A stretch of DNA of 27,116 nt from a virus, in the IMG/VR virus record IMGVR_UViG_3300048507_000378, positions 1-27,116 of that record. The stretch is one strand, 5' to 3'. Under the pieces are notes generated by a model. That model saw only the letters and a list, made by a program, of their open reading frames with translations. It had not been told where the DNA came from and did no database searches. How positions within the stretch are numbered: the first letter of the stretch is position 1; each line of letters opens with the position of its first letter. Shown piece by piece: positions 7,852 to 24,855 of this stretch. The translations under genes and the position numbers were made by a program.

Positions 7852-7879
7852 ATTATATGAAAAAAAGCCCGAATGTTTC
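7852..7879 (-). promoter_or_regulatory. GAAAC-N17-TATAAT promoter for gene 55
   Basis: On the minus strand GAAAC (7875-7879) and TATAAT (7852-7857) are separated by exactly 17 bases, as in three other copies in this window. The -35-like box lies in the loop of the terminator hairpin and the -10 follows its U tract. The start codon is 22 bases downstream of the -10 box. Confidence 0.65.
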
Positions 7880-7891
7880 GAAACGGGCTTT
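7858..7891 (-). terminator. Terminator between 392-residue gene and gene 55
   Basis: On the minus strand AAGCCCG pairs with CGGGCTT around the loop TTTCGAAACATT and is followed by a run of seven T residues. It lies about 27 bases past the preceding stop and overlaps the gene 55 promoter. Confidence 0.88.
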
Positions 7892-7917
7892 TAATGGGAT
7901 TTAGGAAGAAAGTTTAA

Positions 7918-9096
7918 TTAAAATGCATCTTTAGAATCTAAAGCAATTTTAAACTTTTCAATTCTTGCAGGCTCATCTTTTATGAATACTGTAAGTATAT
8001 CATTCTTTCCTGCATTATTATATTCAAGAGCGTCTACTCTCATTACCTGGTCTTTTGGATAACCATCAGATTCTACTTTTAATTGAGCAGAGACATATCC
8101 ATCTTCAATATCTAAAATATCTTCATTTTGTGCAGTAGATAAAACTTCAGAAATTCTTTTGATTTCAGACTTTAATAAGTTATCCGCAGCTTTAATATCT
8201 GGTAAGTTTCTATCAGCTTCTGCTAATCTACCTACTTGATCGTGTAGGAATGATAACATCTCATTGTAAAGATTAATCTTTTCGTTTTTAGCAGCTCTTC
8301 TTTCTGATAAAGATTCTAATAAAGACTCTACTAATTCTGTAATATCATCTCCTGTTTGTTCTGCTACATATTCTACTGCAGCATCTGCTAATAATTTTTT
8401 AAACTGAGAAATTTTAGTAGTTTCATTTACTCTATAAATAAATACATTATTTTCAGCTTTCATTGTGTAAACTTTAATATCGTTATTTACAGACTCTTTT
8501 ACAAAATCTAGCTCTACAAAAGATTTAAAATTTTCTGCTGCTAATTCAAATAATCTAAAAACTGACTTATCTTCATATTTAATATAACCGGCAGCAAATA
8601 CGTTTTCTGTTAAAGACTCATCTTTAGCCATTGCAAATTCTATTTTGCCTGCATAATATGATTCTTTATTCCAGTGGAATTTAATAGTTGTAGCAGATTC
8701 ATTAACACTATTAAGTGAATCTTTAGTAGATTTTATCTCTTTATTAATAGATTTTACAGCTTCCTTTTTTCCGGAAACTCTAAGTTTTTTAGCCTCTTCG
8801 TTTAAAAAGTCTAATTTTTCACTTAATTCGTTAAATTTGTCAAAATTATCTAAAGAACCTTTCTCTATATTGTTAATAACTGATTTATTTTTAAAATCAT
8901 AATAAAAGGTTACACCATTTTCATTTATTTCAAATAAATCTTTAGCTTTTAAAAGATTATTAAAAACTTCTGATGTATAATTAGATTCTTGAATATGACT
9001 ACCTGTAATCTTGAAGTTCTTTCCAGCTACGTTAAAGATATAACCAAAACCTTCTTCAACTGTAGGTGAAATAACTGTTTTTCTTGAATTTGTCAT
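7918..9096 (-). CDS. Unrecognised late protein, Lys/Glu-rich, 392 residues
   Basis: I do not recognise a family. The protein has an N-terminal segment with beta character (FGYIFNVAGKNFKITGSHI), a charged helical stretch at about 85-130 likely to be coiled coil, a second mixed domain around 135-240 and another helical segment around 255-325. There is no signal peptide or membrane span. The heptapeptide VNESATT at 131-137 also occurs near the C-terminus of the scaffold, and LTENVFAAG near residue 165 resembles a Leu-x-Glu prohead protease site. It is preceded by a late-type element and followed by a terminator, within the morphogenesis block. I infer a virion or internal head protein; direct evidence is lacking. 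Confidence 0.8.
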   Translation of the reverse strand: MTNSRKTVISPTVEEGFGYIFNVAGKNFKITGSHIQESNYTSEVFNNLLKAKDLFEINENGVTFYYDFKNKSVINNIEKGSLDNFDKFNELSEKLDFLNEEAKKLRVSGKKEAVKSINKEIKSTKDSLNSVNESATTIKFHWNKESYYAGKIEFAMAKDESLTENVFAAGYIKYEDKSVFRLFELAAENFKSFVELDFVKESVNNDIKVYTMKAENNVFIYRVNETTKISQFKKLLADAAVEYVAEQTGDDITELVESLLESLSERRAAKNEKINLYNEMLSFLHDQVGRLAEADRNLPDIKAADNLLKSEIKRISEVLSTAQNEDILDIEDGYVSAQLKVESDGYPKDQVMRVDALEYNNAGKNDILTVFIKDEPARIEKFKIALDSKDAF

Positions 9097-9120
9097 TTTG
9101 TTTGTTTTTATTTCTATTAT

Positions 9121-9132
9121 ACTATATATCAG
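9121..9132 (-). promoter_or_regulatory. Late-type element before 392-residue gene
   Basis: On the minus strand this is CTGATATATAGT, a variant of the late-type element with G for A near its end. It is about 25 bases before the ATG at 9096, just after the stop of the preceding gene. Role inferred. Confidence 0.4.
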
Positions 9133-9137
9133 TTAAA

Positions 9138-10214
9138 TTATTCATCTATTTTACCACCAAATGGGTATTCACTTCCTTCAACTGTATAATTATCTCCTAG
9201 CATTGTTCTATCTTTCTCAATTGGCTTACCTATTAAGGTCTCTGTATTGCCAATATTAAACATTCTATTTGATTGTTTTCTTCTTCTTGATACTTTCTTA
9301 ATTTGAGAATCAGAGCTTACTAAACCACCTAAAAATGCTAATACATTAGGATCTGTACAATCTTTACCCTCTTCTACTTTAATCCACTCTTGTCCGTTAG
9401 ATTCCCATTTTGCAGGATAATAGCTATCATAATAAATATTAGGTATAAAGTCTGGTTCTATAAAACTATTAGGATCTCCATAATTTCCACAAATACCATT
9501 TTCGTATACGGTCCTTGTAAACTTTCTATAAGTATCTTCTTCAAAATCAAATGAAGGAATAAATGAATTAATATCTAAACTAAATGTAATTTTATGATTT
9601 GCTTTATCATCAAAGCTATATTCTACAGGTCTTTCTTGGGTATAATCATCTGGCATTTGATATTCAGATGAAATTCTATAGGTGCCTTCTTCTAAATGGC
9701 CAGCGTCAATATGATAAAAATTAGCCTTATACATTTTTTTAACGATAGCCTCTGTTACTTTAAATAAATCTAATTGACTTGATACTAATATTTCAATATC
9801 GACTCCAATTACACACGGTATCATTTCGAATTCTGCAACATAGCCCTCCATTAGGCCATCTTCATTCATCATGGCATACTTACCTAAATTTCTTTTATTG
9901 ACTAACTTACCAGGATCTACTGCAAACGAAGTTAAATTAACAATACCTCTAGGTACTTTATCATAATTTCCATCTGCAAATTCACCATCAGGATCACATC
10001 CAGTGCCATTTACATTTGAGAATAAAAAGCTATCTTTTAAGAAATTTTCATCACCAGACACTGCATAAAAGAATGGGACATCAACAACCGATCTTTCATC
10101 ATTGCTAACTTGTCTCCAAAAACTTAGTTTACTATTTAAATCTGCTAATAAACCTACTACAATATGTCTAACAACGGAATCATCTTTATTAAATTTAAGA
10201 TTGTAAGTTGCCAT
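9138..10214 (-). CDS. Tail sheath stabiliser/terminator-like protein (gp15-like)
   Basis: The protein has 358 residues. The N-terminus pairs RHIVVGLLADLNSKLSF with VDVPFFYAVSG, and residues around 130 read MIPCVIGVDIEILVSSQ followed by LFKVTEAIVKKM. This layout resembles T4-like gp15 proteins of marine myophages, which start with an arginine-led hydrophobic helix (IRR..V.FG.LFNDI), then VP-x-x-YAP, and later VPYNINFSLNIM...QVLEQILPYF. In T4, gp15 caps the tail tube and stabilises the sheath before head joining. The protein is longer than T4 gp15 (about 272), with an extra Arg/Lys-rich C-terminal region including SRRRKQSNR. The family assignment is from remembered pattern only and is tentative; a virion role is well supported by context. 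Confidence 0.5.
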   Translation of the reverse strand: MATYNLKFNKDDSVVRHIVVGLLADLNSKLSFWRQVSNDERSVVDVPFFYAVSGDENFLKDSFLFSNVNGTGCDPDGEFADGNYDKVPRGIVNLTSFAVDPGKLVNKRNLGKYAMMNEDGLMEGYVAEFEMIPCVIGVDIEILVSSQLDLFKVTEAIVKKMYKANFYHIDAGHLEEGTYRISSEYQMPDDYTQERPVEYSFDDKANHKITFSLDINSFIPSFDFEEDTYRKFTRTVYENGICGNYGDPNSFIEPDFIPNIYYDSYYPAKWESNGQEWIKVEEGKDCTDPNVLAFLGGLVSSDSQIKKVSRRRKQSNRMFNIGNTETLIGKPIEKDRTMLGDNYTVEGSEYPFGGKIDE

Positions 10215-10230
10215 TAATTATCTTTAATTA

Positions 10231-10243
10231 GTTTATATTATCC
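10231..10243 (-). promoter_or_regulatory. Late-type variant before gp15-like gene
   Basis: On the minus strand this is GGATAATATAAAC, close to the GATATATAAAC elements but with one extra base. It is about 17 bases before the ATG at 10214. Low confidence as an independent promoter. Confidence 0.3.
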
Positions 10244-10260
10244 AGCATCAGCACCATAGC

Positions 10261-10704
10261 CTAGGCTCCTAGGTTACTGTCGTTATCTTGTGCTACTGAT
10301 CCTGTAAAGTTTGTCCAAAAACCCTTACCCTGTAACCATGCCAGAGCAGCATCAACATCGCCACCAAAAGATTGTGCACTTCCGGATATAAAAGGTTCTC
10401 TAGAAATTTCTTCACATTTGCGAATAAATTGCATATCTCCTGCAACATGTTTAAATCCAATGTATGCTGGAGTAGGATTGCCATTATTATCATATGTATT
10501 TCTTACGCCTGTTTTAACAGGAAATGCTATATGATTTCCAGCGCCGTTTTGACCTTCGTCTTCTGCACCCTGGTGCCATGTAAGGCCAGTAGCTGTAAAG
10601 TTTATTGAACTTTCAGTTCTTTGAACATATCCGTCAGTTGCATTTCCATGCTGAGCTACAGATGCAATGTTTGTATCATTTTGTGTAAATGCGTAGTGTG
10701 CCAT
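10261..10704 (-). CDS. Unrecognised 147-residue protein, first of late block
   Basis: The protein is neutral to acidic and rich in Asn, Gly, Thr and aromatic residues, with few long helices, which suggests a beta-rich fold such as a small virion decoration, tube or fibre-associated protein. I recognise no motif and no signal peptide. It is not similar to T4 tail tube gp19 by eye. It opens the run of morphogenesis genes after the recombination gene 46 and is preceded by three late-type elements within 65 bases, the densest cluster in the window, which suggests strong late expression. Function unknown. Confidence 0.75.
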   Translation of the reverse strand: MAHYAFTQNDTNIASVAQHGNATDGYVQRTESSINFTATGLTWHQGAEDEGQNGAGNHIAFPVKTGVRNTYDNNGNPTPAYIGFKHVAGDMQFIRKCEEISREPFISGSAQSFGGDVDAALAWLQGKGFWTNFTGSVAQDNDSNLGA

Positions 10705-10723
10705 ATTTTAAATATTTTATTTG

Positions 10724-10735
10724 TTTTATATATCT
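10724..10735 (-). promoter_or_regulatory. Late-type promoter element, proximal copy
   Basis: On the minus strand this is AGATATATAAAA, identical to the copies before the portal and core protein genes. It is about 20 bases upstream of the ATG at 10704. Confidence 0.5.
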
Positions 10736-10738
10736 GCT

Positions 10739-10746
10739 TATTTATA
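10739..10746 (-). promoter_or_regulatory. Exact TATAAATA late-promoter match
   Basis: On the minus strand the eight bases read TATAAATA, the T4 late promoter consensus. They lie between two GATATATAAA elements, 35 bases before the ATG at 10704. Confidence 0.45.
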
Positions 10747-10753
10747 TGATATA

Positions 10754-10765
10754 GTTTATATATCT
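10754..10765 (-). promoter_or_regulatory. Late-type promoter element, distal copy
   Basis: On the minus strand this is AGATATATAAAC, starting just past the gene 46 stop codon. It is the same sequence as the element at 588-599. Confidence 0.45.
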
Positions 10766-10767
10766 TT

Positions 10768-12438
10768 TTAATCTATATTCTCTATCGTAAACTTAGAAAA
10801 TCCATTTTCTCTATATATTTCAATCTTTTTATCAAAAATCTCATGTGGTAAAACAGAGTGGTTAATTACAAAGGTATTTATTTCGTGCTCTTTAATTACT
10901 TGGTTTAAAATCTTTAATATATTGTAAACACCATCATGGTCTACTGAAGATAATAACTCATCTAAGAACAATAAGTTTAGTTGTGGGAATCTTAACTTTA
11001 AGATTTTAATGATTGCGATAATAACAATAAAGTCTGCTTTCTTACGCTCACCAGTCGAAAGTGTCATTGGATTAATATCTTCACCTAAGTGATTAATAAT
11101 ACAATTAAACTTCTCATCAAATCTAATATGGAATTGCAAGTGCATCGTTTGTGCCATTGCAGCTATATTAGTATTAAGTCCTGGTAGGATAGTTTTAACT
11201 GCAAGATTCTTTACGCCATCTTCACCTAATATATTTTCTACAATTTCCATAAAATTATAGTCTGCATTTAGTCCATCTTTACTTGCAGATTTCTCAGCTT
11301 CTTTCTCTTCAAACTCTGTAATAAGACCTCTTAAGTGATCGAAGTCCGAACCTTCTGGAGTATCTTTTAATTTAACGAGTTCTCCTTTAAGTCCTCGCAT
11401 CGTTACTTTATTATCTGAGATCTGACCCTCTAGTTCTAACTTAGTCTCTCTTGCTGTAATTACTTTTTCTTGTAATTCATCCATCTCAGCCTTAATTGAT
11501 TTGATCTGATCTGTACTAGATTCTATCTTATCTGCAAATTCTACTTTCTGCGTTTTATGCCAATCTGAAGTTAACTTAGTTTCACATGTTGGACAATGCC
11601 CACTCTCATATAACTTTAACTTCTTATTTAGATAATCAATCTCTCTTTTAATATCTCCAGCTTCTGTACGCTTCTCGTTATATTGAGTATTGAAGGTATT
11701 CATTGCACCCTCTTCTTTTTTACGATTAGCTTCAATATCTAATACTACTTCGTGAAGAGCTACTAATTCATCTTTTAATTCTTGGATCTTAGATTTATTT
11801 ACAGTTTTAGATTCCTCTAATAAAGTATTTAGTTTACCTTTAACTGATCCAATTGAATTCATTATCTCATTTAACTCAGCATCAAAAGCATCAATATCAT
11901 ATTTAATATCTCTACGTTCATCTTTGATTTGCCTTTGCATATCATTAAGAATAGAGAAACCAAACATTCTATCGATAATCTGTTTCTTATCTTGATTAGA
12001 CATAGTTAAAAAGGATTTAAAATCATTTACTGATAGAATAATTATATTCTTGAATACGTGGTATGGAATACCGAATACTTCATCTTCTAAATACTCTTGT
12101 ACAGATTTCTTACCTGCTTTATCAAATTCAACCCCATTAATTAAAACACTAAATCTATTCGGTGCAATACCTCGCTCTATTTCTATAGCCATAGTACCAC
12201 ATTGTAAACCAATCTTTACGTGCAGTTCTTTATTAATTCGATTAGGTAAGTCTGCTAATTTAACACCTTCTACTTTTCCATATAAACCATAAATAATTGC
12301 ATTAGCAATAGTAGTTTTACCATGGCCATTTTTACCTAGAGTTAAAAATAGCTCTGAGGTATCTTTCTTAAATTCTATTCTCTGTACTTGATTTCCGTAG
12401 GAAGCAAAGTTCTTAAATTCAATGTAGTCTATTCTCAT
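10768..12438 (-). CDS. 46: Recombination nuclease ATPase subunit (gp46, Rad50/SbcC-like)
   Basis: The 556-residue protein is almost the length of T4 gp46 (about 560). It is an SMC-like ATPase: Walker A GKNGHGKT at 35-42, a central coiled coil with the zinc-hook GHCPTCETKL (Cys282, Cys285), the ABC signature LSTGE at 460-464, and Walker B LLFLDE ending near 494. With gp47 it forms the double-strand-end processing nuclease that makes 3' tails for UvsX-driven recombination-dependent replication. Its ATG overlaps the gp47 stop (TAATG), so the two subunits are translationally coupled, as expected for a fixed-ratio complex. No terminator follows; late-type elements begin right at its end. Confidence 0.93.
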   Translation of the reverse strand: MRIDYIEFKNFASYGNQVQRIEFKKDTSELFLTLGKNGHGKTTIANAIIYGLYGKVEGVKLADLPNRINKELHVKIGLQCGTMAIEIERGIAPNRFSVLINGVEFDKAGKKSVQEYLEDEVFGIPYHVFKNIIILSVNDFKSFLTMSNQDKKQIIDRMFGFSILNDMQRQIKDERRDIKYDIDAFDAELNEIMNSIGSVKGKLNTLLEESKTVNKSKIQELKDELVALHEVVLDIEANRKKEEGAMNTFNTQYNEKRTEAGDIKREIDYLNKKLKLYESGHCPTCETKLTSDWHKTQKVEFADKIESSTDQIKSIKAEMDELQEKVITARETKLELEGQISDNKVTMRGLKGELVKLKDTPEGSDFDHLRGLITEFEEKEAEKSASKDGLNADYNFMEIVENILGEDGVKNLAVKTILPGLNTNIAAMAQTMHLQFHIRFDEKFNCIINHLGEDINPMTLSTGERKKADFIVIIAIIKILKLRFPQLNLLFLDELLSSVDHDGVYNILKILNQVIKEHEINTFVINHSVLPHEIFDKKIEIYRENGFSKFTIENID

Positions 12439-15331: not shown

Positions 15332-15631
15332 TTATTCAAATGGATTAACTATTATTTTAAAAGCCTCTTTACCGGGCTCTTCATTTGTTTGTTCGCATAA
15401 ACCCATAGTAACTAATTCCTTTGCAGACTCTAAAATCTTTGTATGATCTGAATCTGGGAATCTATAAGTTTTTAATGCATGGTAGGTAAAGCTACCTTTA
15501 TATCTGTCAGGATTTCTATTACATAGTTTTACTTCAGCTTGTAAAACATCTAGAGCGGTTGGATAATCTGGTAAATCTTTTTCTATCCCTAGGATATACT
15601 TGATTGGCAGTTTATCTTTATTCAGTTTCAC
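15332..15631 (-). CDS. Unrecognised 99-residue protein between uvsX and 41, GTG start
   Basis: The frame starts with GTG at 15629-15631 inside the end of uvsX (14-base overlap) and stops 8 bases before the helicase start. No upstream ATG is available, and the first internal Met is at residue 76, so GTG or translational coupling is likely. The product is mixed alpha/beta with alternating charged segments; its second half (ILESAKELVTMGLCEQ...EAFKIIVNPFE) could be a winged-helix-like end, but I cannot show this. No catalytic motif. The context suggests a helicase- or recombination-associated small protein. Confidence 0.65.
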   Translation of the reverse strand: MKLNKDKLPIKYILGIEKDLPDYPTALDVLQAEVKLCNRNPDRYKGSFTYHALKTYRFPDSDHTKILESAKELVTMGLCEQTNEEPGKEAFKIIVNPFE

Positions 15632-16730
15632 CTAGCTCTATTAATTCGTCAATATCAAGTTCTCTATGTTCTGTACTGTAATTGAAGAGTGGCTGAATTT
15701 TCTTTTCAATTTTCTGTAAGATTTCTTGAGTAAAAACTTTATCTGTAAAAAATTCAGAATTGGGTACTGCTTCATCTAGATGTTTACAAATCCAACCCCT
15801 TGCGGTAGCCTTAGGAGTTTTAACTCCCTTTTCAATACTACCCTTTGCAATACCGATTTCTTCCCAATCAATATATTGTTCTAGTCCAACAAATCTATTC
15901 ATACCTTCTGTAAAGTGTAAATGAAATTTAATTGGATGTGGTTTTGCAAATCTGTTTTTATTTGGTTTAGCTGTTACAATAATACCAGTCTTTTCACCAC
16001 CTTCTTTTAACTGAGCTTTACCTAAGAATAAAACTATTGAAGCTGCATATTCTGGTCCAGTACCACCACCTGCTACAGTCTGGGAAATAAATGACTGTGT
16101 TTGATATGTATGGTTAGTAAACAAGAATGGGATCTTAAGATCCGCAAGTGGTGTCATAATAATTCTAAAGATAGATTTAAGAACTTTCGATCTAGTCATA
16201 TCTGATTTCTCAGAACCTGACTTAGCGTCTTCAATCTCTTTCATTGTTGCTAAGTTACCAGCAGAATCTAAGATAATCATAATCTTAGGTACTTCACCAC
16301 CAGCTCTTTTTACCTCTTGCATTTTTGAAGTAATAGATGTTACAGAAGTTCTAAACTCTTGTACAGTATTACATGGTTGGTAATTGACTTTAGTAGTATC
16401 AATACCAAACTTCTTCATTAGTTCTCTATCAACTGCTGCTTCTGAATCATAAAAAATAACACTATATCCCATATCAATTGCTCTTGCAATAGAGTTTAGA
16501 ATCAAATAAGTTTTACCAGTTCCTGAAGGACCTGCAATTGAACAAGATCTATTATTAGGCCAACCTCTAAAAAGTGAACCACTGACACATGCGTTTAAGT
16601 GATAGTTACCAGTGTCAATCCATTCTGTAACCTCACTAAAATTAGAATGTTCCATAACGGAACCTAGCGGATTAAGGTCCGCTAATTCTTTATTAATGTC
16701 ATCAAAACTAAATGTTTTCTTTTTTGCCAT
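15618..16730 (-). CDS. uvsX: UvsX recombinase (RecA-like)
   Basis: The 370-residue protein is close to T4 UvsX (about 391). Motifs include Walker A GPSGTGKT (67-74), the catalytic Glu in VIFYDSEAAVD (Glu97), Walker B KIMIILDS (Asp155), and the DNA-binding loop region FLFTNHTYQTQSF...GGGTGPEYAA. It forms filaments on single-stranded DNA and drives strand invasion for recombination-dependent replication, working with the gp46/47 nuclease encoded downstream. The ATG is preceded by an A-rich leader and a GAAAC-N17-TATAAC promoter ending about 20 bases upstream, so it probably starts a transcription unit that continues through 41, 47 and 46. Confidence 0.92.
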   Translation of the reverse strand: MAKKKTFSFDDINKELADLNPLGSVMEHSNFSEVTEWIDTGNYHLNACVSGSLFRGWPNNRSCSIAGPSGTGKTYLILNSIARAIDMGYSVIFYDSEAAVDRELMKKFGIDTTKVNYQPCNTVQEFRTSVTSITSKMQEVKRAGGEVPKIMIILDSAGNLATMKEIEDAKSGSEKSDMTRSKVLKSIFRIIMTPLADLKIPFLFTNHTYQTQSFISQTVAGGGTGPEYAASIVLFLGKAQLKEGGEKTGIIVTAKPNKNRFAKPHPIKFHLHFTEGMNRFVGLEQYIDWEEIGIAKGSIEKGVKTPKATARGWICKHLDEAVPNSEFFTDKVFTQEILQKIEKKIQPLFNYSTEHRELDIDELIELGETE

Positions 16731-16749: not shown

Positions 16750-16777
16750 GTTATATGGTAGTATTTGATATAGTTTC
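16750..16777 (-). promoter_or_regulatory. GAAAC-N17-TATAAC promoter for uvsX
   Basis: On the minus strand GAAAC (16773-16777) and TATAAC (16750-16755) are 17 bases apart, with CTA after the first box as in the gene 45 copy. It fills the 47-base gap before uvsX. Confidence 0.65.
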
Positions 16778-17170: not shown

Positions 17171-18379
17171 TTAAAATAATGCTGATGCATAAATCAGGTT
17201 AGTGTCTAATGTCTGTAATTTAATAGCTTTTAATACTCTATTAAGTGGGTCAATCATACACTTTTCAAATTGTGTATCATAGTCTACTTTAGGTGCGATC
17301 TCATAAGGATGTTCACCTGGTAAATAAGCAAATACTTCAGAGATTGGAGTTTTACAATTGTAGATCTTAAGCTTCTCACCGTTACCAATCAATTTATATT
17401 TGTTTTTATATTTAGAATTGTTATTCAAGTTATAGTTATAGTAACCTGCTGCCTTTACATTAGCTGGACATTTTAGTCCTACTTGAAATTCAATTTGGTC
17501 ATCTACAATATACTTTTCAATATTATTAGTTCTTCTATTAAATGAGATGTCGTCAATATTTGCTAATGCAAATTCTTTTTTAGTCTCTTTCATAAAGCTA
17601 ACTAATTGTTGTAGCTCTTCAGCGCCAGGTGTTTTCTGTGATCTGAATAAAATTCTAAGTGCTTCTACTAATTTCTCTCTTGCAAACTTTGGCGTAGAAG
17701 ATTGAATAGTATCGAAGCCGATTGTTTTTACTTTCTTAAGTGATGGATGTCTATCAGTAGTTTCTAATTTATCATCCCATGCTATATTTTGAATATACTT
17801 TTTCTTTGACATCCAAATACCATTATAGGCAAGAGATTCTAGTTCAAAGAATAAGAAGTTATCAGTATTAGATACATCAGCATATTTTTGCATACATTTA
17901 GTAATATAGTCTTGAAGTCTAAATGCATAGAAAGCTAGGATAAATTCATCAATAGGTAAAACATTATCTTCATCTTCCCAGATAATAGATTCATAAAGGT
18001 CTTGAAACTGAACGTAACATGAATCTGTGTCAATATAAATTACTGCAGGTTTTTCAATTTTACCCTTTACTTTAATATTGAATTGTTCGTGTACTTTAGT
18101 ATCTTTATGCCAAAAATCATTAACGTATTTGTTAAGGATGGTTTCGGAATAAAGAATAGCATCTTTACCTTGTTTAGTAATGGACTCTGCAATATCAATA
18201 TTAAAAAAGTGAAACCACTTATTACCGAATGCACCATAAATAGAGTTAAGAGTAAGTTTTACAGCTTGTTCATAAGCAGTATACTTAGCGGAGAGTTGCT
18301 TGTAATGTTTTACAAGCACTTCCGCATCTTCTTTACTTAGTTGATCGGTTGGTTTATTTTCTAATGCAGTAACATCCAT
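17171..18379 (-). CDS. 43: DNA polymerase gp43, C-terminal half (motifs B and C)
   Basis: The 402-residue protein starts within the fingers of a family B polymerase. Motif B KLTLNSIYGAFGN is at residues 41-53, motif C IYIDTDS (Asp117, Asp119) follows, then the palm and thumb. It ends in IYASALF, a plausible clamp-binding tail like the C-terminus of T4 gp43. It lacks the exonuclease domain and motif A, which are encoded at 22935-24347; the two parts together total 872 residues, near T4 gp43 (about 898). The gene has its own ATG 3 bases after the gp45 stop, so clamp and polymerase half are co-expressed. Residues before motif B show no intein C-terminal signature, so the halves probably assemble without splicing. 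Confidence 0.93.
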   Translation of the reverse strand: MDVTALENKPTDQLSKEDAEVLVKHYKQLSAKYTAYEQAVKLTLNSIYGAFGNKWFHFFNIDIAESITKQGKDAILYSETILNKYVNDFWHKDTKVHEQFNIKVKGKIEKPAVIYIDTDSCYVQFQDLYESIIWEDEDNVLPIDEFILAFYAFRLQDYITKCMQKYADVSNTDNFLFFELESLAYNGIWMSKKKYIQNIAWDDKLETTDRHPSLKKVKTIGFDTIQSSTPKFAREKLVEALRILFRSQKTPGAEELQQLVSFMKETKKEFALANIDDISFNRRTNNIEKYIVDDQIEFQVGLKCPANVKAAGYYNYNLNNNSKYKNKYKLIGNGEKLKIYNCKTPISEVFAYLPGEHPYEIAPKVDYDTQFEKCMIDPLNRVLKAIKLQTLDTNLIYASALF

Positions 18380-18382
18380 TTA

Positions 18383-19126
18383 TTACGCAGTTTGACAAGT
18401 TGATACTGTAAGTAATGTACTAGATTCTGTAGATTCAAATACGATTTTAGAATCTGAAATATGCACTGTTTGCTCTTCTTTATCTAAAAGGTTTAAGTAT
18501 TTCTTGTAAACTGTTACTGCTCCAGATCCATTTGATTCTGGATTAATTGTAGCGTTAAATGATTTCCCACTTACTGCAACTCCTGTGCCATTAGCTTTTA
18601 CGCTGAAAGTCTCATCTTTATCTAAGCCAAATAGATTTTTAACTTTATTAATAGTATGCGTATCCATTGTAAAACTAAATTTAGTATCGTCAGTTGCGAA
18701 AATAGCTGCTTGTTGATCCGGTGTTAGGTCTTTAAATCCTAATGAAGGCTCTGAACAAGATAGAGTAATTTCTAACTCATCATTAAAGATTCTAAGTGTA
18801 GATGCAACGAACTCATTTTCGTTTTCTAAGAACTCAATTTCACCTTTGATAGCATCATGCTCAAAGTGTTTAATTGCATCAATTACTTTAGCTCCTTCAA
18901 AGAAAGCTACTTTCATTTCCTTATCAGTATCTGGAAATTCACTGATTTGGAAGATTTTATCACATGGAATATTATGTGATTTTACTGCGTCTCTCTGTGG
19001 TAGATAAACTGCAGAATGTATTTGTCCATCTTTAATTTTCATATAGACAAATGAGTCAATAAGCTTTACACGGTTAATAAACCCTGTTAGCTCGTGCTGG
19101 TCAATTCGATCAATTTGTAATTTCAT
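18383..19126 (-). CDS. 45: Sliding clamp (gp45-like)
   Basis: At 247 residues the protein matches the size of T4 gp45 (about 228), the trimeric processivity clamp that also activates late transcription with gp55 and gp33. Two tandem domains of alternating strands and short helices can be seen, with LTPDQQAAIFATDDTKFSFTMDTHTINKVKNLFGL at the domain junction and a C-terminal segment rich in strands. Sequence identity with T4 is low, so the call leans on length, the two-domain layout and its place directly before the polymerase half (T4 order is 45-44-62-regA-43). The clamp-loader genes 44 and 62 are not in this window. A strong promoter-like element lies upstream. Confidence 0.75.
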   Translation of the reverse strand: MKLQIDRIDQHELTGFINRVKLIDSFVYMKIKDGQIHSAVYLPQRDAVKSHNIPCDKIFQISEFPDTDKEMKVAFFEGAKVIDAIKHFEHDAIKGEIEFLENENEFVASTLRIFNDELEITLSCSEPSLGFKDLTPDQQAAIFATDDTKFSFTMDTHTINKVKNLFGLDKDETFSVKANGTGVAVSGKSFNATINPESNGSGAVTVYKKYLNLLDKEEQTVHISDSKIVFESTESSTLLTVSTCQTA

Positions 19127-19149: not shown

Positions 19150-19177
19150 ATTATATAGTAAAGTACTAGTTAGTTTC
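19150..19177 (-). promoter_or_regulatory. TTGAAAC-N17-TATAAT promoter for gene 45
   Basis: On the minus strand GAAAC (19173-19177), preceded by TT, and TATAAT (19150-19155) are 17 bases apart. It lies between the terminator of the outer-membrane protein gene and gene 45, whose ATG is about 23 bases below the -10 box. This is the best copy of the family. Confidence 0.7.
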
Positions 19178-19180
19178 AAT

Positions 19181-19211
19181 AAAAAACCCAGGGATCCTAG
19201 AAACCCTGGGT
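19181..19211 (-). terminator. Terminator after outer-membrane protein gene
   Basis: On the minus strand ACCCAGGG pairs with CCCTGGGT around a 10-base loop and is followed by a T tract. It starts 24 bases after the stop at 19235. Confidence 0.92.
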
Positions 19212-19234
19212 ATTTCAAACCAAATCTGATTAGC

Positions 19235-19651
19235 TTAGAATTTTAAGCCAAATCCGATTTGAAGGTTAGTAGTTTCAGCTCCTAAATCGTAAACGATTTT
19301 TGGATCTACAAACATTGCCCCTTTATGGAACTCAAACATTTTACCTACACCTAATTGAGCTTGATCGAAATCAAAGTCGTTTAGTGCAACATAGCCAAAA
19401 AAGCCTTTATGGAAATATCTTCCTTCTAGACCTAAGACCATGTCTTCTGTTGAGTCTGCTTGTGTTAAATTCATTCCAACCATATAGTTGTCAGAAAAAG
19501 CATAGCCAATTGTTGGCTGGATTGATAACTCAGTCCAAGCCGTGTTAGTAATATCGCCAGTACCTACGTACCAGTCACCTTTTGCATTTTGTGCATTTAC
19601 ACTTAAAGTTGTTAAAACTGCAAGCGTCATTGTTAAAATAAAATTTTTCAT
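19235..19651 (-). CDS. Small outer-membrane beta-barrel protein with signal peptide
   Basis: The 138-residue precursor starts MKNFILTMTLAVLTTLSVNA, a typical signal peptide, with likely cleavage before Gln21 as is common in Bacteroidota (NAQ). The mature part of about 118 residues alternates polar and hydrophobic/aromatic residues in strands (YVGTGDI, WTELSIQPTIGYAF, YMVGMNL, MVLGLEGRYF, GFFGYVAL, AQLGVGKMFEF, NLQIGFGLKF) and ends in Phe, the usual barrel-assembly signal. Eight short strands would fit the OmpX/OmpW-like small-barrel size. It has its own terminator and sits between RNR and clamp genes, so it is an accessory gene. It would act at the host outer membrane; receptor masking or superinfection exclusion is a guess. 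Lambda lom is a known phage-borne OmpX-like example. Confidence 0.82.
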   Translation of the reverse strand: MKNFILTMTLAVLTTLSVNAQNAKGDWYVGTGDITNTAWTELSIQPTIGYAFSDNYMVGMNLTQADSTEDMVLGLEGRYFHKGFFGYVALNDFDFDQAQLGVGKMFEFHKGAMFVDPKIVYDLGAETTNLQIGFGLKF

Positions 19652-19687: not shown

Positions 19688-19780
19688 CTAGTCTACTCTA
19701 GGAATTGATGAGCTAGTATTAGCCGCCGAGTCGGAATCGGAGGTTTGCTTTAATATTTTTGTTAACGATTTATCGTTCAT
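19688..19780 (-). CDS. Possible 30-codon leader ORF before outer-membrane gene
   Basis: An ATG at 19778-19780 opens a 30-codon frame ending in TAG, with product MNDKSLTKILKQTSDSDSAA followed by NTSSSIPRVD. It has an A-rich leader and lies 17 bases below a TATAAATA element. The base composition of its second half is more GC-rich than surrounding DNA. It could be a leader peptide or the remnant of a gene, or simply chance. No homology recognised. Confidence 0.3.
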   Translation of the reverse strand: MNDKSLTKILKQTSDSDSAANTSSSIPRVD

Positions 19781-19799
19781 TTCTTTATTAATGTGCTTA

Positions 19800-19827: not shown

Positions 19828-19846
19828 AAAAAAAGTTAATAAACTT

Positions 19847-19887: not shown

Positions 19888-19890
19888 GTT

Positions 19891-19906: not shown

Positions 19907-19937
19907 TCCTAAGAAGTGGACTTAACCACAACTAATA

Positions 19938-21764
19938 TTATCCGTCACATGCAACACAATCTGGATCAGTGGCTGCTTTCGCAATATCACCTCTTAACAC
20001 AGATTCTGTTCTCATATAATAAAGTGTTTTAACTCCCTCTTTAAAAGCTTCTAAGTGTACTTTATTAATAAACTTAGTATCTGCTTCTGTTGGGAACGCT
20101 AGGTTTAAACTTACAGCCTGATCAACATATTGTTGTCTAACACCTGCTTGTTTAACTAGGTCTAATTGGTTTATCTCTTTAAAAGTTTTAAATATATCTT
20201 TTGCTGGAATCCATTTATCTTGCTCTAACTCTGGAAGTGCCTCAAATTTCTTTTTAGAAATTAAATTATCCTTTACAGTAATATTAGTAGCCACTTGTAC
20301 ATAATGGTCATCTAAGAAATCTAGACCCTGTACCGAACCTCCGTCTTCTAGAATTTTATTCCATGTTGGTTTTGTATCTCTATTAATTGCAGCTAAAAAG
20401 CCTTCTAATACTGGATTCTTTCTAATAAATGTACCCTTTGCTGTTTGTTCTGTGAACACGTTAGCAGCCCAAGGCTCAATGCCTGCAGATACATTACCTG
20501 CTAGTTTTGAGTTGCTTACAGTAGGTGCAATGGCTCTTAGGTGAGTATTTCTCATACCAGTTCCTTTACACCATAGTGGTTCGCCATATTCCAATGCCAT
20601 ATCTCTTGAAGCCTTTTCACTTTCGGTCTTTAACTGCGAAAAAATCTTACGAGTCTCAAATTGAGCTGGTAAACCTTCAAATGGAATACCTCTTTCTTGT
20701 AAATAAGTATGCCACCCAAGAACTCCAAGTCCTAGTGCTCTACCTTTTTCTGCAGATCTTACAGAATTCTCAAAACCTCTCATGAATTTTGCCTTCTGAA
20801 TAAATTCATCTAACACTCCATCTAGGAACCAAGTTGCAGTATAAACTAGATCGGTATTCTTCCACTCATCATATTTTGCTAAGTTAACAGAAGATAGACA
20901 ACATACAAAAGAGTGAGACTCATCTGTATGTAGGGTTATCTCAGAGCAAATATTAGTCATATAAACTTTAAGGCCGTTCTGCTTGTATGCCTCTGGATTT
21001 GCTCTATTGATATTGCCCTTAAACATTACATAAGGCTCTCCTGTTGCTTTTCTCTTTCTTAAAACACCAATCCACCTCTTACGCGCTTCAGGGTCTCCCA
21101 TTTGCACTTTCTGCATAAAACCATCTGGTACTACAACACATTGGTGCATATTAAGAGATTGTCTATTAACATCGCCTTTAGGCTCTCTAATTTCCAACCA
21201 TTCCCAGAAGTCACCGTGTTCAATATCAATATTAACTGATGCTGCTCCTCTACGAACAGAACCTTGATTAGTTGCCAGTATTGTTGAGTCGTATATTTTA
21301 CAAAACGGTACGACACCATCACTTGTTCCATTACCTGCTATATTACTTCCAGCGGGTCTAATTTGATTTACTCCAATGCCAACTCCACCGCCATGTTTTG
21401 CGAGTAACATCATCTCCAGATTTTTAGAACCAATGTCATGGATAGAATCCGCAACATCAATACCGAAACAAGAAATAGGAAGACCTCTTTCTAATCCTGT
21501 ATTAGATAAAACTGGAGAGGCTAGGTTTAACCAGCCTTTCCATATATAATCAAAAAATTTGCTTGCCATTTCAGGTTTACCTAAACGTCTTGCTACTGTA
21601 GTCGAAACTCTCCAATATGCGTCTTTTGGTTTTTCACCATTAAATAAGTAACCTGCTGATATTGTTTTAATATAAACCTCAGTATTTGCCCATTCTGGAA
21701 AATCAACTCCTAATTTCCAGCCTAAGTATTCTGCGTGGTTTACTGTTTTATTATTGTCTTTCAT
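19938..21764 (-). CDS. nrdA: Class I ribonucleotide reductase large subunit (NrdA), no ATP cone
   Basis: The 608-residue protein reduces ribonucleotides to deoxyribonucleotides for phage DNA synthesis. Catalytic residues are intact: redox Cys99 (LPISCFG), Asn271-Cys273-Glu275 (NICSE), the partner Cys at 288/289 (FVCCLSS), the radical-transfer pair Tyr582-Tyr583 (TLYYMRT), and a C-terminal Cys603-x-x-Cys606 for re-reduction. It is much shorter than T4 or E. coli NrdA (about 750 residues): the N-terminal ATP-cone domain that lets dATP switch the enzyme off is absent, since the catalytic barrel begins within the first 90 residues. The ATG is 8 bases after nrdB, so both subunits are made from one message. 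A terminator with a double hairpin follows. Confidence 0.94.
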   Translation of the reverse strand: MKDNNKTVNHAEYLGWKLGVDFPEWANTEVYIKTISAGYLFNGEKPKDAYWRVSTTVARRLGKPEMASKFFDYIWKGWLNLASPVLSNTGLERGLPISCFGIDVADSIHDIGSKNLEMMLLAKHGGGVGIGVNQIRPAGSNIAGNGTSDGVVPFCKIYDSTILATNQGSVRRGAASVNIDIEHGDFWEWLEIREPKGDVNRQSLNMHQCVVVPDGFMQKVQMGDPEARKRWIGVLRKRKATGEPYVMFKGNINRANPEAYKQNGLKVYMTNICSEITLHTDESHSFVCCLSSVNLAKYDEWKNTDLVYTATWFLDGVLDEFIQKAKFMRGFENSVRSAEKGRALGLGVLGWHTYLQERGIPFEGLPAQFETRKIFSQLKTESEKASRDMALEYGEPLWCKGTGMRNTHLRAIAPTVSNSKLAGNVSAGIEPWAANVFTEQTAKGTFIRKNPVLEGFLAAINRDTKPTWNKILEDGGSVQGLDFLDDHYVQVATNITVKDNLISKKKFEALPELEQDKWIPAKDIFKTFKEINQLDLVKQAGVRQQYVDQAVSLNLAFPTEADTKFINKVHLEAFKEGVKTLYYMRTESVLRGDIAKAATDPDCVACDG

Positions 21765-21772
21765 ATTAATAT

Positions 21773-22777
21773 TTAATCAAATAAATCGTCTTCGTCCCAG
21801 TTTTCACCTTCACCAGCTTTTGCGTAGTCAGTTGGTCTAACTGCGAAAAAATCTGTGTGAGTATGTCCACCTGTTAAATGATAGAACCAGTCTAATTCTC
21901 CTGCTTGTTCTTCATTAAACTCGAATTCAGATTCGTACCCTAATTCAACTAATTTCTCATTAGTTCTCTTGTTAATAAATTCTTTTAAATCTTGAGCTTT
22001 TAAATTATCTAAATCGCCTTGCTCAAATATTTTATCAATAAACTTATGCTCCATTTGGCGCATTAAGTCTGCTGCTTGTAATACGTCAGCATAAACCTCT
22101 TGTTTCAGTTCAGGATATTCCTGACACATGTGTTTAAATAATTGACATCCCATTCTAGAATGTAGAGACTCGTCTCTTACTGACCATTTCATTTGTTGAC
22201 CAATACCTTTCAATAAATTTCTCATTTGGAAAGAGTATAAAACTGCAAAAGAACTATAGAGGCTAACTCCTTCTGCAAAAGCAGAAAAAATTGCTAGAGA
22301 TCTTGCAACCTCTTTTCTTGCATTAGCATCTTTAGCTAAGTCTTCATGTGTATATTCAGCTGTAGTTGAAGTTAATAAGTCAAATTTATCTGCCATCGTA
22401 GGTTCATGTAAGAATGCTTCAAAATCTTCTAGACCTAAAGTTTCATTTAGATATGAATAAGCTGTAGCGTGAATTGTTTCTTGTGAACCAAACATCATGG
22501 CCATTTGCTTAATTTCGTGTTTAGGGAACCATCTGGTTACCATTGTTGTCCAGTAATCAGATACTGCACATTCTGTTTGCGCAAATCCTAGAAGGATATT
22601 TCCTACTAAATGTTTTTCGTGTGGTAAAAGATTTTCATTCCAATCTTTCACATCACCTTGCATTGATATTTCTGTATGCAGCCAAAAGGCTTGTGCTTGT
22701 TTTAACCAACCTTCTGTGTAGTATTCTGGATATTCAAAAGGCTTAAAGGGAATTCTTTCAGTAAATAGTGATGACAT
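21773..22777 (-). CDS. nrdB: Class I ribonucleotide reductase small subunit (NrdB), Glu at first metal ligand
   Basis: The 334-residue protein is the ferritin-like radical-generating subunit. Metal ligands can be placed by spacing against E. coli NrdB: Glu69 (for Asp84), Glu100 and His103 (QETIH), Glu169 (AEGVSLY), Glu203 and His206 (DESLH). The intervals 69-100 and 169-203 equal those of E. coli exactly. The radical tyrosine corresponds to Tyr107 (HATAY). Asp to Glu at the first ligand is unusual for standard class Ia enzymes; Glu is found there in the metal-radical class Ic, which however lacks the tyrosine. The C-terminus is an acidic tail ending DDLFD, as needed for NrdA binding. It follows a terminator and is co-transcribed with nrdA. 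Confidence 0.93.
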   Translation of the reverse strand: MSSLFTERIPFKPFEYPEYYTEGWLKQAQAFWLHTEISMQGDVKDWNENLLPHEKHLVGNILLGFAQTECAVSDYWTTMVTRWFPKHEIKQMAMMFGSQETIHATAYSYLNETLGLEDFEAFLHEPTMADKFDLLTSTTAEYTHEDLAKDANARKEVARSLAIFSAFAEGVSLYSSFAVLYSFQMRNLLKGIGQQMKWSVRDESLHSRMGCQLFKHMCQEYPELKQEVYADVLQAADLMRQMEHKFIDKIFEQGDLDNLKAQDLKEFINKRTNEKLVELGYESEFEFNEEQAGELDWFYHLTGGHTHTDFFAVRPTDYAKAGEGENWDEDDLFD

Positions 22778-22829
22778 ATTGCTAATAAGTTGTTTTTTTT
22801 AGTTATTTAAGTTTTAAAATAATAAAGGC

Positions 22830-22853
22830 CAAAAAAGGTCTTTGTGAGACCTC
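22830..22853 (-). terminator. Terminator between polymerase half and nrdB
   Basis: On the minus strand AGGTCT pairs with AGACCT around CACAA and is followed by TTTTT. It is 82 bases past the gp43 N-half stop and about 53 bases before the nrdB start. Confidence 0.85.
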
Positions 22854-22896
22854 TCTTAATCTAATCTTTAATCTGAATTATTAGCAGCGCTGCTAG
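22836..22896 (-). ncRNA. Candidate small RNA between gp43N and nrdB
   Basis: A late-type element (22900-22910) is followed on the minus strand by a 14-bp perfect palindrome and, about 40 bases on, by an intrinsic terminator, all in the 157 bases between the two genes. This layout would yield an RNA of roughly 60 bases with a 5' and a 3' hairpin. No ORF of note lies within. It could equally be an nrdB leader with an attenuator. Prediction from sequence layout only. Confidence 0.3.
22882..22895. repeat. 14-bp perfect palindrome
   Basis: TAGCAGCGCTGCTA is its own reverse complement and is GC-rich in AT-rich surroundings. It could be an operator, or an RNA hairpin if transcribed. Confidence 0.7.
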
Positions 22897-22899
22897 TGA

Positions 22900-22910
22900 T
22901 TTATATATCT
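22900..22910 (-). promoter_or_regulatory. Late-type element between gp43N and nrdB
   Basis: On the minus strand this is AGATATATAAA, the same core as upstream of gp23. It is the only copy outside the structural block. It lies upstream of a terminator, so it would produce a short RNA or a leader to nrdB. Confidence 0.4.
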
Positions 22911-22934
22911 CGCAAGTGCTAATAAACTTCTAAT

Positions 22935-24347
22935 TTATAGACTAAATTTTTTTTGTAATTCGTCAGCTTTTGTATAATAATCATAAGAAGTTTTCTTGTA
23001 ATCTTTTCTTTGAGCATATAAATCTCCTAAGATTTTTTTAAGAACGCTTTCTTCTTTTGAATAAACAACTCCATTCTGACAAACTATAACATCTTGGTCT
23101 TTTCTACGTTCCTTGACTTCTGCTTCAGGAACAATTTCGATGAACGAATCCGGTGAAATATTAAATTGCCTCATTACGGATGGATATAGTGATGCAAAGT
23201 CAAATGCACTTACTCCACTATAATATCCGGTTATAGGTTCTTTAACAAAGGCGCCGGCATACTTTGCATCTTTCTTACCATCTTCCCTGTCCCACTCGGT
23301 GCCGATACGTTTATCCTGTTCGGCTAACTTACGAGCGATTAAAGATTCAGTAATAGCCACCGGTGAGGCAGCTTTATATAGTGGCATTTTAGTAATAGTT
23401 GCTAACGTTAGCAGAACTTCCATTGACCTAAGCTTCTGGTCAATATAGTAAACTAATACCGAGTCAATTACATTATAGAAAACATATTTTTGAAAATCGT
23501 TTTCATAAAGGTCTTGTAATGAACCACTATAATTAATCTTACTTATACCATCTAAGACTGCGCCAGATACAAATGCTAATGCGTTTGATTCTTTTACATG
23601 TCCAGATCTATCATATTTATCGTACAATTGCATGTAGTCTAAAATACCCATATGTAAAGGTCTAGAATCTTTTTTATCTAATGCTCCTGTGATAGCAACA
23701 TCGGTTAAATCGATTTGTAGTCTTTTACATCTGTTGACAATATATTGCCAGTCATAGTTGATAAAGTTCCAACCAGTCATCATAGGAAACTTAGGTAAAA
23801 ACTTGTGCAAGAATGTATACAACATATTGTATTCATCTTTGAACTTGTAATAACTAAATTCCCAGTCCTGGTCATAATCACCTGTTTTAAAATGAGCATT
23901 AGTATCTTCTTCAATCTTTTTGATCTGTTCTGCAGAAAGATCTTCAAGACCAAGAACGATAGCTTTACGCTCTGGGGTGATAATTGAGAAAGTTAATATA
24001 CGAGACTTAGCTTCTTCAGGCTTTGGAAAACCATCTACAATCTCTGTCTCAATATCAACAAAATAAGTGCGAGGCATATTGAACTCATAGATCTCATCTC
24101 GATCTTCTTGAGAAAGAGAATCCATAAAATAAAGTAATGAAAACTTATTAAAGGTCCTGGATCTGGACTTTTTTAAAGTTCTGCCATCCCAGTTTTTAAT
24201 GTTTGGGTCTCTCCACTTGTCGTCATCTTTCGTTACGACCCAATTTTGAAACTGCTTTACCGGATAGCGTTTAAATGATACTGTACCTTCTTTATTAAAG
24301 TAAGATACAATTAACTCATTCTCTTTTTGTTCAATATCTAATAGCAT
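22935..24347 (-). CDS. 43: DNA polymerase gp43, N-terminal half (exonuclease and motif A)
   Basis: The 470-residue protein carries the 3'-5' exonuclease motifs Exo I FVDIETE (Asp98, Glu100), Exo II GWNFINYDW (Asp199) and Exo III YNVIDSVLVY (Asp295), then palm motif A FDFASLYPS (Asp383). It ends after a basic helix (YAQRKDYKKTSYDYYTKADE) that corresponds to the first part of the fingers. Motifs B and C are absent and are encoded separately at 17171-18379, so this is one piece of a split family B polymerase that must assemble with the other to replicate DNA. The stop is clean and there is no intein N-terminal segment. The ATG overlaps the stop of gene 56 (TAATG). Split polymerases are known in some Aeromonas T4-like phages and in Rhodothermus phage RM378. 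Confidence 0.93.
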   Translation of the reverse strand: MLLDIEQKENELIVSYFNKEGTVSFKRYPVKQFQNWVVTKDDDKWRDPNIKNWDGRTLKKSRSRTFNKFSLLYFMDSLSQEDRDEIYEFNMPRTYFVDIETEIVDGFPKPEEAKSRILTFSIITPERKAIVLGLEDLSAEQIKKIEEDTNAHFKTGDYDQDWEFSYYKFKDEYNMLYTFLHKFLPKFPMMTGWNFINYDWQYIVNRCKRLQIDLTDVAITGALDKKDSRPLHMGILDYMQLYDKYDRSGHVKESNALAFVSGAVLDGISKINYSGSLQDLYENDFQKYVFYNVIDSVLVYYIDQKLRSMEVLLTLATITKMPLYKAASPVAITESLIARKLAEQDKRIGTEWDREDGKKDAKYAGAFVKEPITGYYSGVSAFDFASLYPSVMRQFNISPDSFIEIVPEAEVKERRKDQDVIVCQNGVVYSKEESVLKKILGDLYAQRKDYKKTSYDYYTKADELQKKFSL

Positions 24348-24811
24348 TAATATCCTCGGTTTTGACGGTCATGGTTTTCTGCATTCTTTGCCATGTACAG
24401 GTTAACAATATCTTTACTTGTCATACCGATAGAAATTGCAAAGTTCATGTAGAAATGCAAACCATCAATCCATTCGTAGAATAATTCTAATTTATCAGCT
24501 TCAGAAAGATCCTCGATCTTCATATCGGCTGCTTGAGCATTAGTACTCTTCCAGTATTTCCATGCACCAGAGGCAATACCGTCGTTGATACCTCCAAGGG
24601 CATCAAACATTTCATTTAATTCATCTGACATTGCGTGTTTATTTACACACCAGAAATCTGCAATTTGTTTTAGATTCCAACCTGTAAAGTCGAAGCCTAA
24701 ACGCTTTTGTAATTCTACTTGTTTGTTGTAAATAAGACCCAATGTGTCTTCTGCTTCTGAATGAAAGTCTTGGACTTCCAAATCTGCACATTTGTTATCT
24801 GCGTTTGCCAT
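24347..24811 (-). CDS. 56: dCTP/dUTP pyrophosphatase (gp56-like)
   Basis: The 154-residue all-helical NTP pyrophosphatase aligns closely with T4 gp56 (about 171 residues) over its C-terminal half: KIEDLSEADKLEL...WIDGLHFYMNF...SIGM and the ending KNAENHDRQNRGY match T4 KIQDLSPEDQLEI...LIDQFHFFMNK and KNAENFARQDRGY. Metal-binding acids are in DELNEM (64-69) and EWIDGLHF (113-120). T4 gp56 hydrolyses dCTP and dUTP, feeding dUMP/dCMP to modification and thymidylate pathways and keeping unmodified cytosine out of phage DNA. The gene has its own GAAAC-N17-TATAAC promoter and overlaps the polymerase start by one base. Confidence 0.88.
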   Translation of the reverse strand: MANADNKCADLEVQDFHSEAEDTLGLIYNKQVELQKRLGFDFTGWNLKQIADFWCVNKHAMSDELNEMFDALGGINDGIASGAWKYWKSTNAQAADMKIEDLSEADKLELFYEWIDGLHFYMNFAISIGMTSKDIVNLYMAKNAENHDRQNRGY

Positions 24812-24827
24812 ATATTTTTATTTAATT

Positions 24828-24855
24828 GTTATAGTTAGATTTACTTATCTGTTTC
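24828..24855 (-). promoter_or_regulatory. TTGAAAC-N17-TATAAC promoter for gene 56
   Basis: On the minus strand GAAAC (24851-24855), preceded by TT, lies in the last codons of the PLP-enzyme gene. TATAAC (24828-24833) is 17 bases further on, about 16 bases before the gene 56 ATG. After the -10, AATTAAATAAAAAT closely matches the uvsX leader. Confidence 0.65.

Follow-up and report, generated by a model that had tools for sequence, protein, structure and literature searches.

A stretch of viral DNA of 27,116 bases, the linear IMG/VR record IMGVR_UViG_3300048507_000378 (the window), carries on its minus strand, together with all its recognisable genes, members of a promoter-like family in which a box reading [GT]AAAC is followed after 17 or 18 bases by TATAAY. 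This arrangement, called the M element here, most probably serves T4-like phages, whose hosts are probably Bacteroidota, as their middle promoter, and its reader would be a phage-encoded sigma factor of the extracytoplasmic function (ECF) type. That the sites form a fixed-spacing promoter family on the gene strand, near start codons and beyond chance, is near certain from the sequences. An earlier note on the window had proposed GAAAC, or GRAAC-N17-TATAAH, as the pattern; this is a subset of the real [GT]AAAC-N17/N18-TATAAY family, which is wider than first described and, judged by its sequence, extends to the Lak megaphages.

In the window, GAAAC-N17-TATAAY was found four times, at each place where it had been reported by eye and nowhere else (100 shuffles gave a mean of 0.11 and at most 1). 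The relaxed pattern GRAAC-N17-TATAAH added, with 0 mismatches, only the fifth variant that had been proposed. The elements and the genes that they serve are as follows.

7852-7879, minus strand: M promoter of gp55, GAAAC at 7875-7879 and TATAAT at 7852-7857, 23.5 bits
16750-16777, minus strand: M promoter of uvsX, GAAAC at 16773-16777 and TATAAC at 16750-16755, 26.5 bits
19150-19177, minus strand: M promoter of the sliding clamp gp45, GAAAC at 19173-19177 and TATAAT at 19150-19155, 25.2 bits
24828-24855, minus strand: M promoter of the gp56-like NTP pyrophosphohydrolase, GAAAC at 24851-24855 and TATAAC at 24828-24833, 20.6 bits
19800-19827, minus strand: variant promoter GGAAC/TATAAA, upstream of a short open reading frame (ORF; ATG at 19780) and of an ompA-like gene at 19235-19651
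7456-7830, minus strand: gp55, late sigma factor (PHROG 234, E 1.2e-9)
15618-16730, minus strand: uvsX recombinase (PHROG 97, E 1.3e-58)
18383-19126, minus strand: sliding clamp gp45, by predicted fold
24347-24811, minus strand: gp56-like nucleotide pyrophosphohydrolase / dUTPase_2, by homology search

The last base of the -10 hexamer stands 21 nt before the GTG start of gp55, 19 nt before uvsX, 23 nt before gp45, 16 nt before the gp56-like gene and, at the variant, 19 nt before the ATG, within the range of 16-23 bases given originally. The gp56-like promoter overlaps the 3' end of the gene at 24841-25737. The variant scores only 3.0 bits with the matrix described below, and its place is conserved: G[AG]AAC-N17-TATAA occurs in 20 of 22 ompA-like upstream regions examined, duplicates included. 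Sequence searches with gp45 gave no named match and one PHROG of unknown function at E 0.01; the predicted fold settles its product as a sliding clamp, with PCNA as the best match (Z 18.9) and T4 gp45 (1czd) at Z 17.8 and a root-mean-square deviation (rmsd) of 2.8 over 208 aligned residues; such lists of structural matches are a second look at those of Foldseek, and absence from them carries no meaning.

The family was followed in the best 80 loci of 257 confirmed uvsX relatives among IMG/VR candidates. Among named phages, the nearest relative of the window's UvsX protein is in LR756500 (462 kb, 63% identity), and then come huge phages and Prevotella Lak phages at 36-38%. In the 80 loci GAAAC-N17-TATAAY has 153 matches on the gene strand and none on the opposite strand, and any other spacing from 8 to 30 gives at most 11 matches on a strand. 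Removal of loci more than 90% alike left 39, with 74 sense and 0 antisense matches, and with 17 matches at a spacing of 32. In seven long marine contigs (G011 being used to base 100,000 of 100,897), [GT]AAAC-N17-TATAAY gives 77 sense and 1 antisense matches and the N18 form 20 and 8, against a sense mean of 4.2 and a maximum of 9 at the other spacings from 5 to 40. Spacing and strand, as first described, hold in the relatives. The prospect that matches might be equally frequent within coding sequence was not borne out: 65 of 78 sites (the 74 of the 39 dereplicated loci, which include L005, near-identical to the window, and the window's 4) lie wholly outside called genes, and 96% of bases lie inside them. 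Gene calling simply took the longest ORF, which misses the GTG starts of gp55. The distance from site end to called start is 15-34 nt in 58 of 77 measurable sites, and the zone 12-35 nt upstream of called starts makes up 2.6% of the strand; 14 more sites lie 116-122 nt before an internal ATG because the gene caller missed the gp55 start, and 5 lie farther away. By gene, the exact site was found before gp45 in 26 of 33 loci, before gp55 in 21 of 35 (a relaxed form in 34 of 35), and before the gp56-like gene in 3 of 17 (relaxed, 8 of 17).

The same pairing of box and hexamer appears when the -10 is left out of the definition, all boxes being taken for which the hexamer at +17 ends 12-36 nt upstream of a start. 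The commonest hexamers are then TATAAT and TATAAC, both for GAAAC (17 and 9 of 101 boxes) and for TAAAC (11 and 12 of 77); with CAAAC or AAAAC as the box, neither ranks in the top six. The exact GAAAC pattern was rejected as a full definition because it is too narrow, and [GT]AAAC recovered uvsX sites in several loci; identities of box and spacer at uvsX are biased, the sites having been picked by their box. The TTGAAAC-like box originally described is upheld only in part, T being present at -35 in 45 of 80 sites and at -36 in 37 of 80. A matrix refined on the marine contigs and LR756500 has mostly A at -2, and at 14 bits it finds 53 sense and 13 antisense sites in LR756500, which is excluded from the marine count given below.

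The genes with M sites, an M gene being one whose start lies at most 60 nt from a site end in the seven long contigs, resemble by function a T4-like middle regulon, with replication, recombination, nucleotide and late-switch genes. The sites recur before genes for dCMP deaminase and the clamp (7 contigs each), gp41 helicase (6), PolB-type exonuclease, RNase HII, gp32, a DUF6378 protein, gp44 clamp loader and a KTSC protein (5 each), the 56-like enzyme and uvsX (4 each), thymidylate synthase and guanylate kinase (3 each) and the N part of the polymerase (2), and before six further unannotated families in 2-4 contigs; for gp55 the caller gives 2 contigs, but its relaxed site is nearly general, as stated above. 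The gene classes read from the window, namely replication, nucleotide metabolism and regulation, therefore hold in the seven contigs. So does their separation from the structural genes, which carry GATATATAA in place of the M element: 106 genes have the M element only, 120 the late (L) element only and 57 an early-type (E) element only, and just 5 combine L and M, 4 E and M, and 2 E and L.

The note had named no factor. The candidate reader came from a Pfam search for sigma region 2 in eleven marine contigs, six of which encode, besides gp55-like matches, a second sigma of about 203 residues that contains regions 2 and 4 (the Pfam models r2 and r4_2 both score above cut-off). It scores 72 bits with TIGR02937, the ECF model (cut-off 42.9), and 80 bits with TIGR02985, the Bacteroidetes subfamily, below that model's own cut-off. 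Its nearest PDB chains include SigW and sigmaE. An AlphaFold2 model (pLDDT 82, pTM 0.44), in which the placement of the domains is not trusted, matches region 2 of sigmaE (4lup) at Z 13.3 and rmsd 2.0 over 94 residues, and region 4 of sigmaE with -35 DNA (2h27) at Z 10.1 and rmsd 2.2 over 68 residues. By its regions, family score and modelled fold, the protein classes as an ECF sigma factor. It is encoded in 60 IMG/VR loci, with the recognition helix LQT[VI]KNRIxRGK identical in 35 aligned. PHROG 1740, "RNA polymerase sigma factor", matches it at E 2.6e-21, and "sigma-W factor" genes of gut phages (cr50_1 and others) are 25-29% identical; we know of no promoter assigned to PHROG 1740 or to these sigma-W relatives. 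As a separate observation, tRNA clusters lie just downstream of the sigma gene in L095 (2941-5344, 10 predicted genes), L104 (4956-8471, 15) and L111 (15754-19979, 23).

SigW and sigmaE share with the phage sigma a two-domain fold, and with the M element an AAC in the -35, which is TGAAAC for SigW and GGAAC for sigmaE (a literature search for the string TGAAAC gave no match). SigW also shares the recognition-helix pattern TVKxRIxRG, whereas sigmaE has TVRSRIFRA. ECF sigma factors generally read AAC at -35 (PMC4153023, PMC8791391), and typically, but not universally, want CGT at -10 (PMC4153023). The -35 motif of the family is present in the M element, where AAAC outnumbers the same-letter controls CAAA and ACAA at N17 and N18 combined, in the marine contigs and in five huge phages. 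The typical bacterial ECF -10 is CGT-like, whereas the phage M promoters have TATAAY.

Sigma and box occur together in these five huge phages, whose sigma homologues are 27% (Lak-A2), 32% (LR756502), 27% (LR756501), 22% (LR756504) and 35% (LR756500) identical to the marine protein. AAAC-Nk-TATAAY ending 10-90 nt before a start was counted, with TAG read through in Lak-A2. At k = 17 and 18 the counts are 0 and 31 in Lak-A2, 5 and 12 in LR756502, 5 and 9 in LR756501, 19 and 16 in LR756504, 17 and 4 in LR756500, 53 and 14 in the seven marine contigs, and 0 and 0 both in T4 and in cyanophage S-RIM8; at other k the mean is 1.0-2.4 and the maximum 3-7. T4 was scanned whole, and five others in part: S-RIM8 over 160,000 of 168,327 bases, Lak-A2 over 460,000 of 541,299, LR756502 over 438,002 of 642,428, LR756501 over 440,101 of 735,411 and LR756504 over 480,107 of 636,363, while LR745206 and Lak-C1 stood outside this count. 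At k = 17 and 18 the control boxes give 0-5; in the marine contigs they rise to as many as 14 and 21 at other spacings, which may come from further A often following the true box. In Lak-A2 (L303-L322, L199-L201), [ACGT]AAAC-N18-TATAAY stands 31 times before ORF starts against a mean of 1.3 at other spacings, and from its sequence we take it as a promoter class of the Lak megaphages. Upstream of uvsX, Lak-C1 has TAAAC-N18-TATAAT and Lak-A2 an AAAAC form at the same place. Low exact GAAAC-N17 counts in Lak and other huge phages had been considered as counter-evidence, but this was overturned since the box there is looser and mostly N18. Seven further sigma-carrying contigs have 7-16 KAAAC-N17-TATAAY sites on one strand and 0-2 on the other, with 0-3 for the reversed control and one in T4; contig pairs such as G015/G018 and G020/G021 share identical sites, so they are not independent.

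The marine hosts are probably Bacteroidota, as suggested by the few Shine-Dalgarno (SD) sites and by a TAHHTTTG-like early element. An SD-like site precedes 34 of 1179 genes, and A accounts for half of the 12 nt upstream of starts. A host is named only in the records of Lak (Prevotella) and in no marine record; in a pattern-based scan of 84,980 genomes the relatives of the sigma numbered 19, all 21-26% identical and most titled Riflebacteria, with no link to a host. The primary sigma of Bacteroidetes reads TAHHTTTG, with T at -8 and G at -5 nearly invariant, including the T at -8 in F. johnsoniae (PMC6847099). The M boxes lack both: in the set chosen without the -10, A stands at -8 in 69 of 101 GAAAC and 41 of 77 TAAAC boxes, and G at -5 in 9 of 101 and 11 of 77. 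The view that the pattern departs from the flavobacterial host consensus is upheld by this A in place of the nearly invariant T. A host-like dyad, TTTG-N14..25-TAnnTTTG, was tried and discarded, as it showed no gene-strand excess. The sigma gene itself has TATATT[AT][AG] within 110 nt upstream in 55 of 56 loci and an M-type site in 0 of 56 (four of the 60 loci were excluded because the match was not at position 6001); the same element precedes 135 of 1021 other genes and occurs in 200 of 5655 antisense tiles.

If TATAAY is taken as -12 to -7, [GT]AAAC would form a -35 box at -34 to -30. The host sigma would read the TAHHTTTG-like early promoter of the ECF sigma gene; host core RNA polymerase with the ECF sigma would read the M promoters and so switch on the replication, recombination and nucleotide genes and gp55, and gp55 would direct the late GATATATAA promoters, by analogy with T4. 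Since the sigma gene has a host-like element and gp55 an M promoter, the order from host sigma to ECF sigma to gp55 would be written in the promoters, from which we infer the timing of the early, middle and late classes. It further seems rather likely that, from the marine phages to Lak, a shared and old phage ECF sigma runs the middle regulon instead of sigma appropriation, with an unusual combination of an ECF-type -35 and a TATAAT-type -10, and that in the marine clade the terminator of the gene before gp55 encloses the gp55 promoter. To our knowledge, the early-to-middle switch of T4-like phages outside Proteobacteria and Cyanobacteria has received little study, and a host whose primary sigma is aberrant makes the question sharp. 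If the ECF reading is true, the middle step of the T4 plan has been solved by another protein family, and sigma/promoter pairs orthogonal to the Bacteroidota primary sigma would be at hand. The three promoter classes, together with a regulon that can be tested and a candidate factor for it, would allow genes of many uncultured marine phages and of Lak megaphages to be assigned a time from sequence.

Phage sigma factors and T4-like middle regulons are already known; an ECF-type sigma in place of MotA/AsiA in T4-like Bacteroidota phages would be new, and searches of the open-licence PMC literature brought up no paper about this promoter or about T4-like phages with a middle class driven by an ECF sigma. 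Bacillus phage SPO1 uses successive phage sigmas for its middle and late genes, the phage and its promoters being unrelated to these. In phiEco32 and in 7-11, whose host is Salmonella, the phage sigma is likewise distant from the sigmaA family and promoters were predicted from intergenic comparison; the phiEco32 motif TAATGTATA, however, was treated like an extended -10, and one sigma has predicted middle and late variants, unlike here (PMC4331800). The group 2 (T4-like) jumbo phages, including Lak-B8 and Tenacibaculum PTM1, are all said to encode sigma factors, but the term ECF is absent from the text of that study and the passages drawn on here contain no promoter or regulon (PMC7824862). 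T4 middle promoters, among them PuvsX and P56/69, have a MotA box, TGCTT, centred at -30 and depend on appropriation by MotA and AsiA (PMC2988021). They have in common with the M promoters their recombination, replication, nucleotide and late-switch genes and a TATAAT-like -10; unlike them, the M promoters have [GT]AAAC at the -35 position and a probable dedicated sigma, MotA and AsiA having gone undetected over Pfam cut-offs in 13 records.

This likeness of regulons would also fit a T4-style appropriation, in which an unrecognised MotA-like activator sits on the box and works with a host sigma that reads TATAAY. Some T4-like jumbo phages are reported to have AsiA (PMC7824862), and small proteins of the MotA/AsiA type may escape Pfam; in 13 records, most of them fragments, no MotA_activ match exceeded the cut-off (two weak ones fell in ORFs longer than 600 residues) and no AsiA match did, with T4 positive for both. 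Such a mechanism is nevertheless unlikely, as a MotA box lies 12 +/- 1 nt from the -10 (PMC2988021) and the M box 17-18 nt away, and a host sigma reading TATAAY would differ from the known Bacteroidetes primary sigma. An ECF-like -35 could also be served by an alternative (ECF) sigma of the host that the phage induces or captures, and ECF sigmas are numerous in Bacteroidota. Phages of presumably different hosts, however, keep both the box and an ECF sigma of their own, and the genome scan revealed no close host copy, so that this is quite improbable. Direct reading by the host primary sigma, as in ordinary sigma70-type promoters (TTGACA/TATAAT), is suggested by TTGAAA-N18-TATAAT at the gp45 and 56-like sites, which resembles the E. 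coli consensus. It is very improbable given that few SD sites and A-rich bases before starts fit a Bacteroidota host, whose primary sigma reads TAHHTTTG, and that a separate host-like TATATTWR element stands upstream of the sigma gene.

The sites could also be chance, or a by-product of hairpins with GAAAC as the loop and TATAAT as an AT-rich leader. Two terminator-like hairpins of the window lie at or just before M promoters.

7863-7892, minus strand: terminator-like hairpin with the GAAAC box of gp55 in its loop and its T-run in the promoter spacer, -12.1 kcal/mol, z -3.9
19180-19217, minus strand: terminator-like hairpin ending just before the gp45 promoter, -17.6 kcal/mol, z -2.7

Of 34 gp55 loci with a relaxed site, 30 have the box within a hairpin and 31 have a T-run in the spacer (the last relaxed match per locus is used and that of L057 is spurious, so the hairpin count may be low). 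The window's uvsX box forms the loop of a small hairpin without a T-run (z -2.3), and in relatives the box lies in a hairpin at 6 of 21 uvsX sites. Only 4 of 26 gp45 sites, however, are in a hairpin, and at the 56-like and 19800 sites folding is no stronger than in shuffled sequence (z -1.0 and 0.2). This explanation is hardly credible, and the exact spacing and the strand bias, which extend over more than 1 Mb, refute it for the whole family. At gp55, the shared bases of terminator and promoter could stop read-through from the late-type gene before it yet open gp55 to the middle sigma.

Several points weigh against a phage ECF sigma as the reader. The proposed link from sigma to box is drawn from co-occurrence, the preference of the ECF family and elimination in the marine contigs. 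As LR756500, LR756504 and the two Lak records searched each encode two or more region-2 proteins above the cut-off, the marine contigs are the only ones in which elimination is of use, and even among them G002 and G006 each show a further weak region-2 match, with in-frame stops. The search found no sigma gene in five of the eleven long marine contigs, perhaps because they are fragments, and the window is itself a fragment without one. The -10 is TATAAY in place of the ECF-type CGT. A uvsX site is recognisable in 22 of 39 loci and missing in 17, and gp41 has an exact site in only 2 of 38. Box and spacing drift outside the marine clade, where the box is looser and the exact GAAAC-N17 pattern is at chance in Lak-A2. 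The matrix count at 14 bits in the seven marine contigs, 126 sense against 2 antisense sites, is biased, because the sense strand of these contigs had served to refine the matrix. Besides its ECF orthologue, LR756500.1 encodes two larger sigma-like proteins of 278 and 277 residues (75544-76380 and 440925-441758).

The late-type element GATATATA occurs nine times on the minus strand of the window and 0 times on the plus strand, preceding the capsid, protease and portal genes among others, and also nrdB.

6391-6398, minus strand: late-type GATATATA element upstream of the portal gene at 4771-6369 (PHROG 213)
5' ends at 22909, 10764, 10734, 9130, 4743, 4357, 2206 and 598, minus strand: the other GATATATA elements, by pattern scan

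One family has both M and late elements with a shared -10: GAAAC-N13-GATATATAAT at 107802-107829 of G001 and in orthologues appears as a combined middle/late promoter before a short ORF and, in G001, gp32. Many small genes (G001-G005, G007, G011, L223-L282) are preceded by a third element, a T-run and ATGTCA-N11-TATATTAG with about TACTGTAATTAAAA after it; TATATT[AT][AG] with GTCA 11 nt before it was counted 51 times on the main strand and 11 times on the other in the seven contigs, which have genes on both strands. This TATATTAG element is longer than a plain host promoter, and perhaps an extra factor is involved.

Elsewhere in the window, DNA polymerase gp43 is split into genes for the C-terminal (17171-18379) and N-terminal (22935-24347) parts; nrdA, nrdB, the clamp and the ompA-like gene lie between the two. 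The gene at 2208-4325, with head maturation protease homology, contains by eye a long stretch rich in E, A and D. Beside the replication genes, a threonine dehydratase-like gene (24841-25737) adjoins a GtrB-like glycosyltransferase gene (25744-26463).

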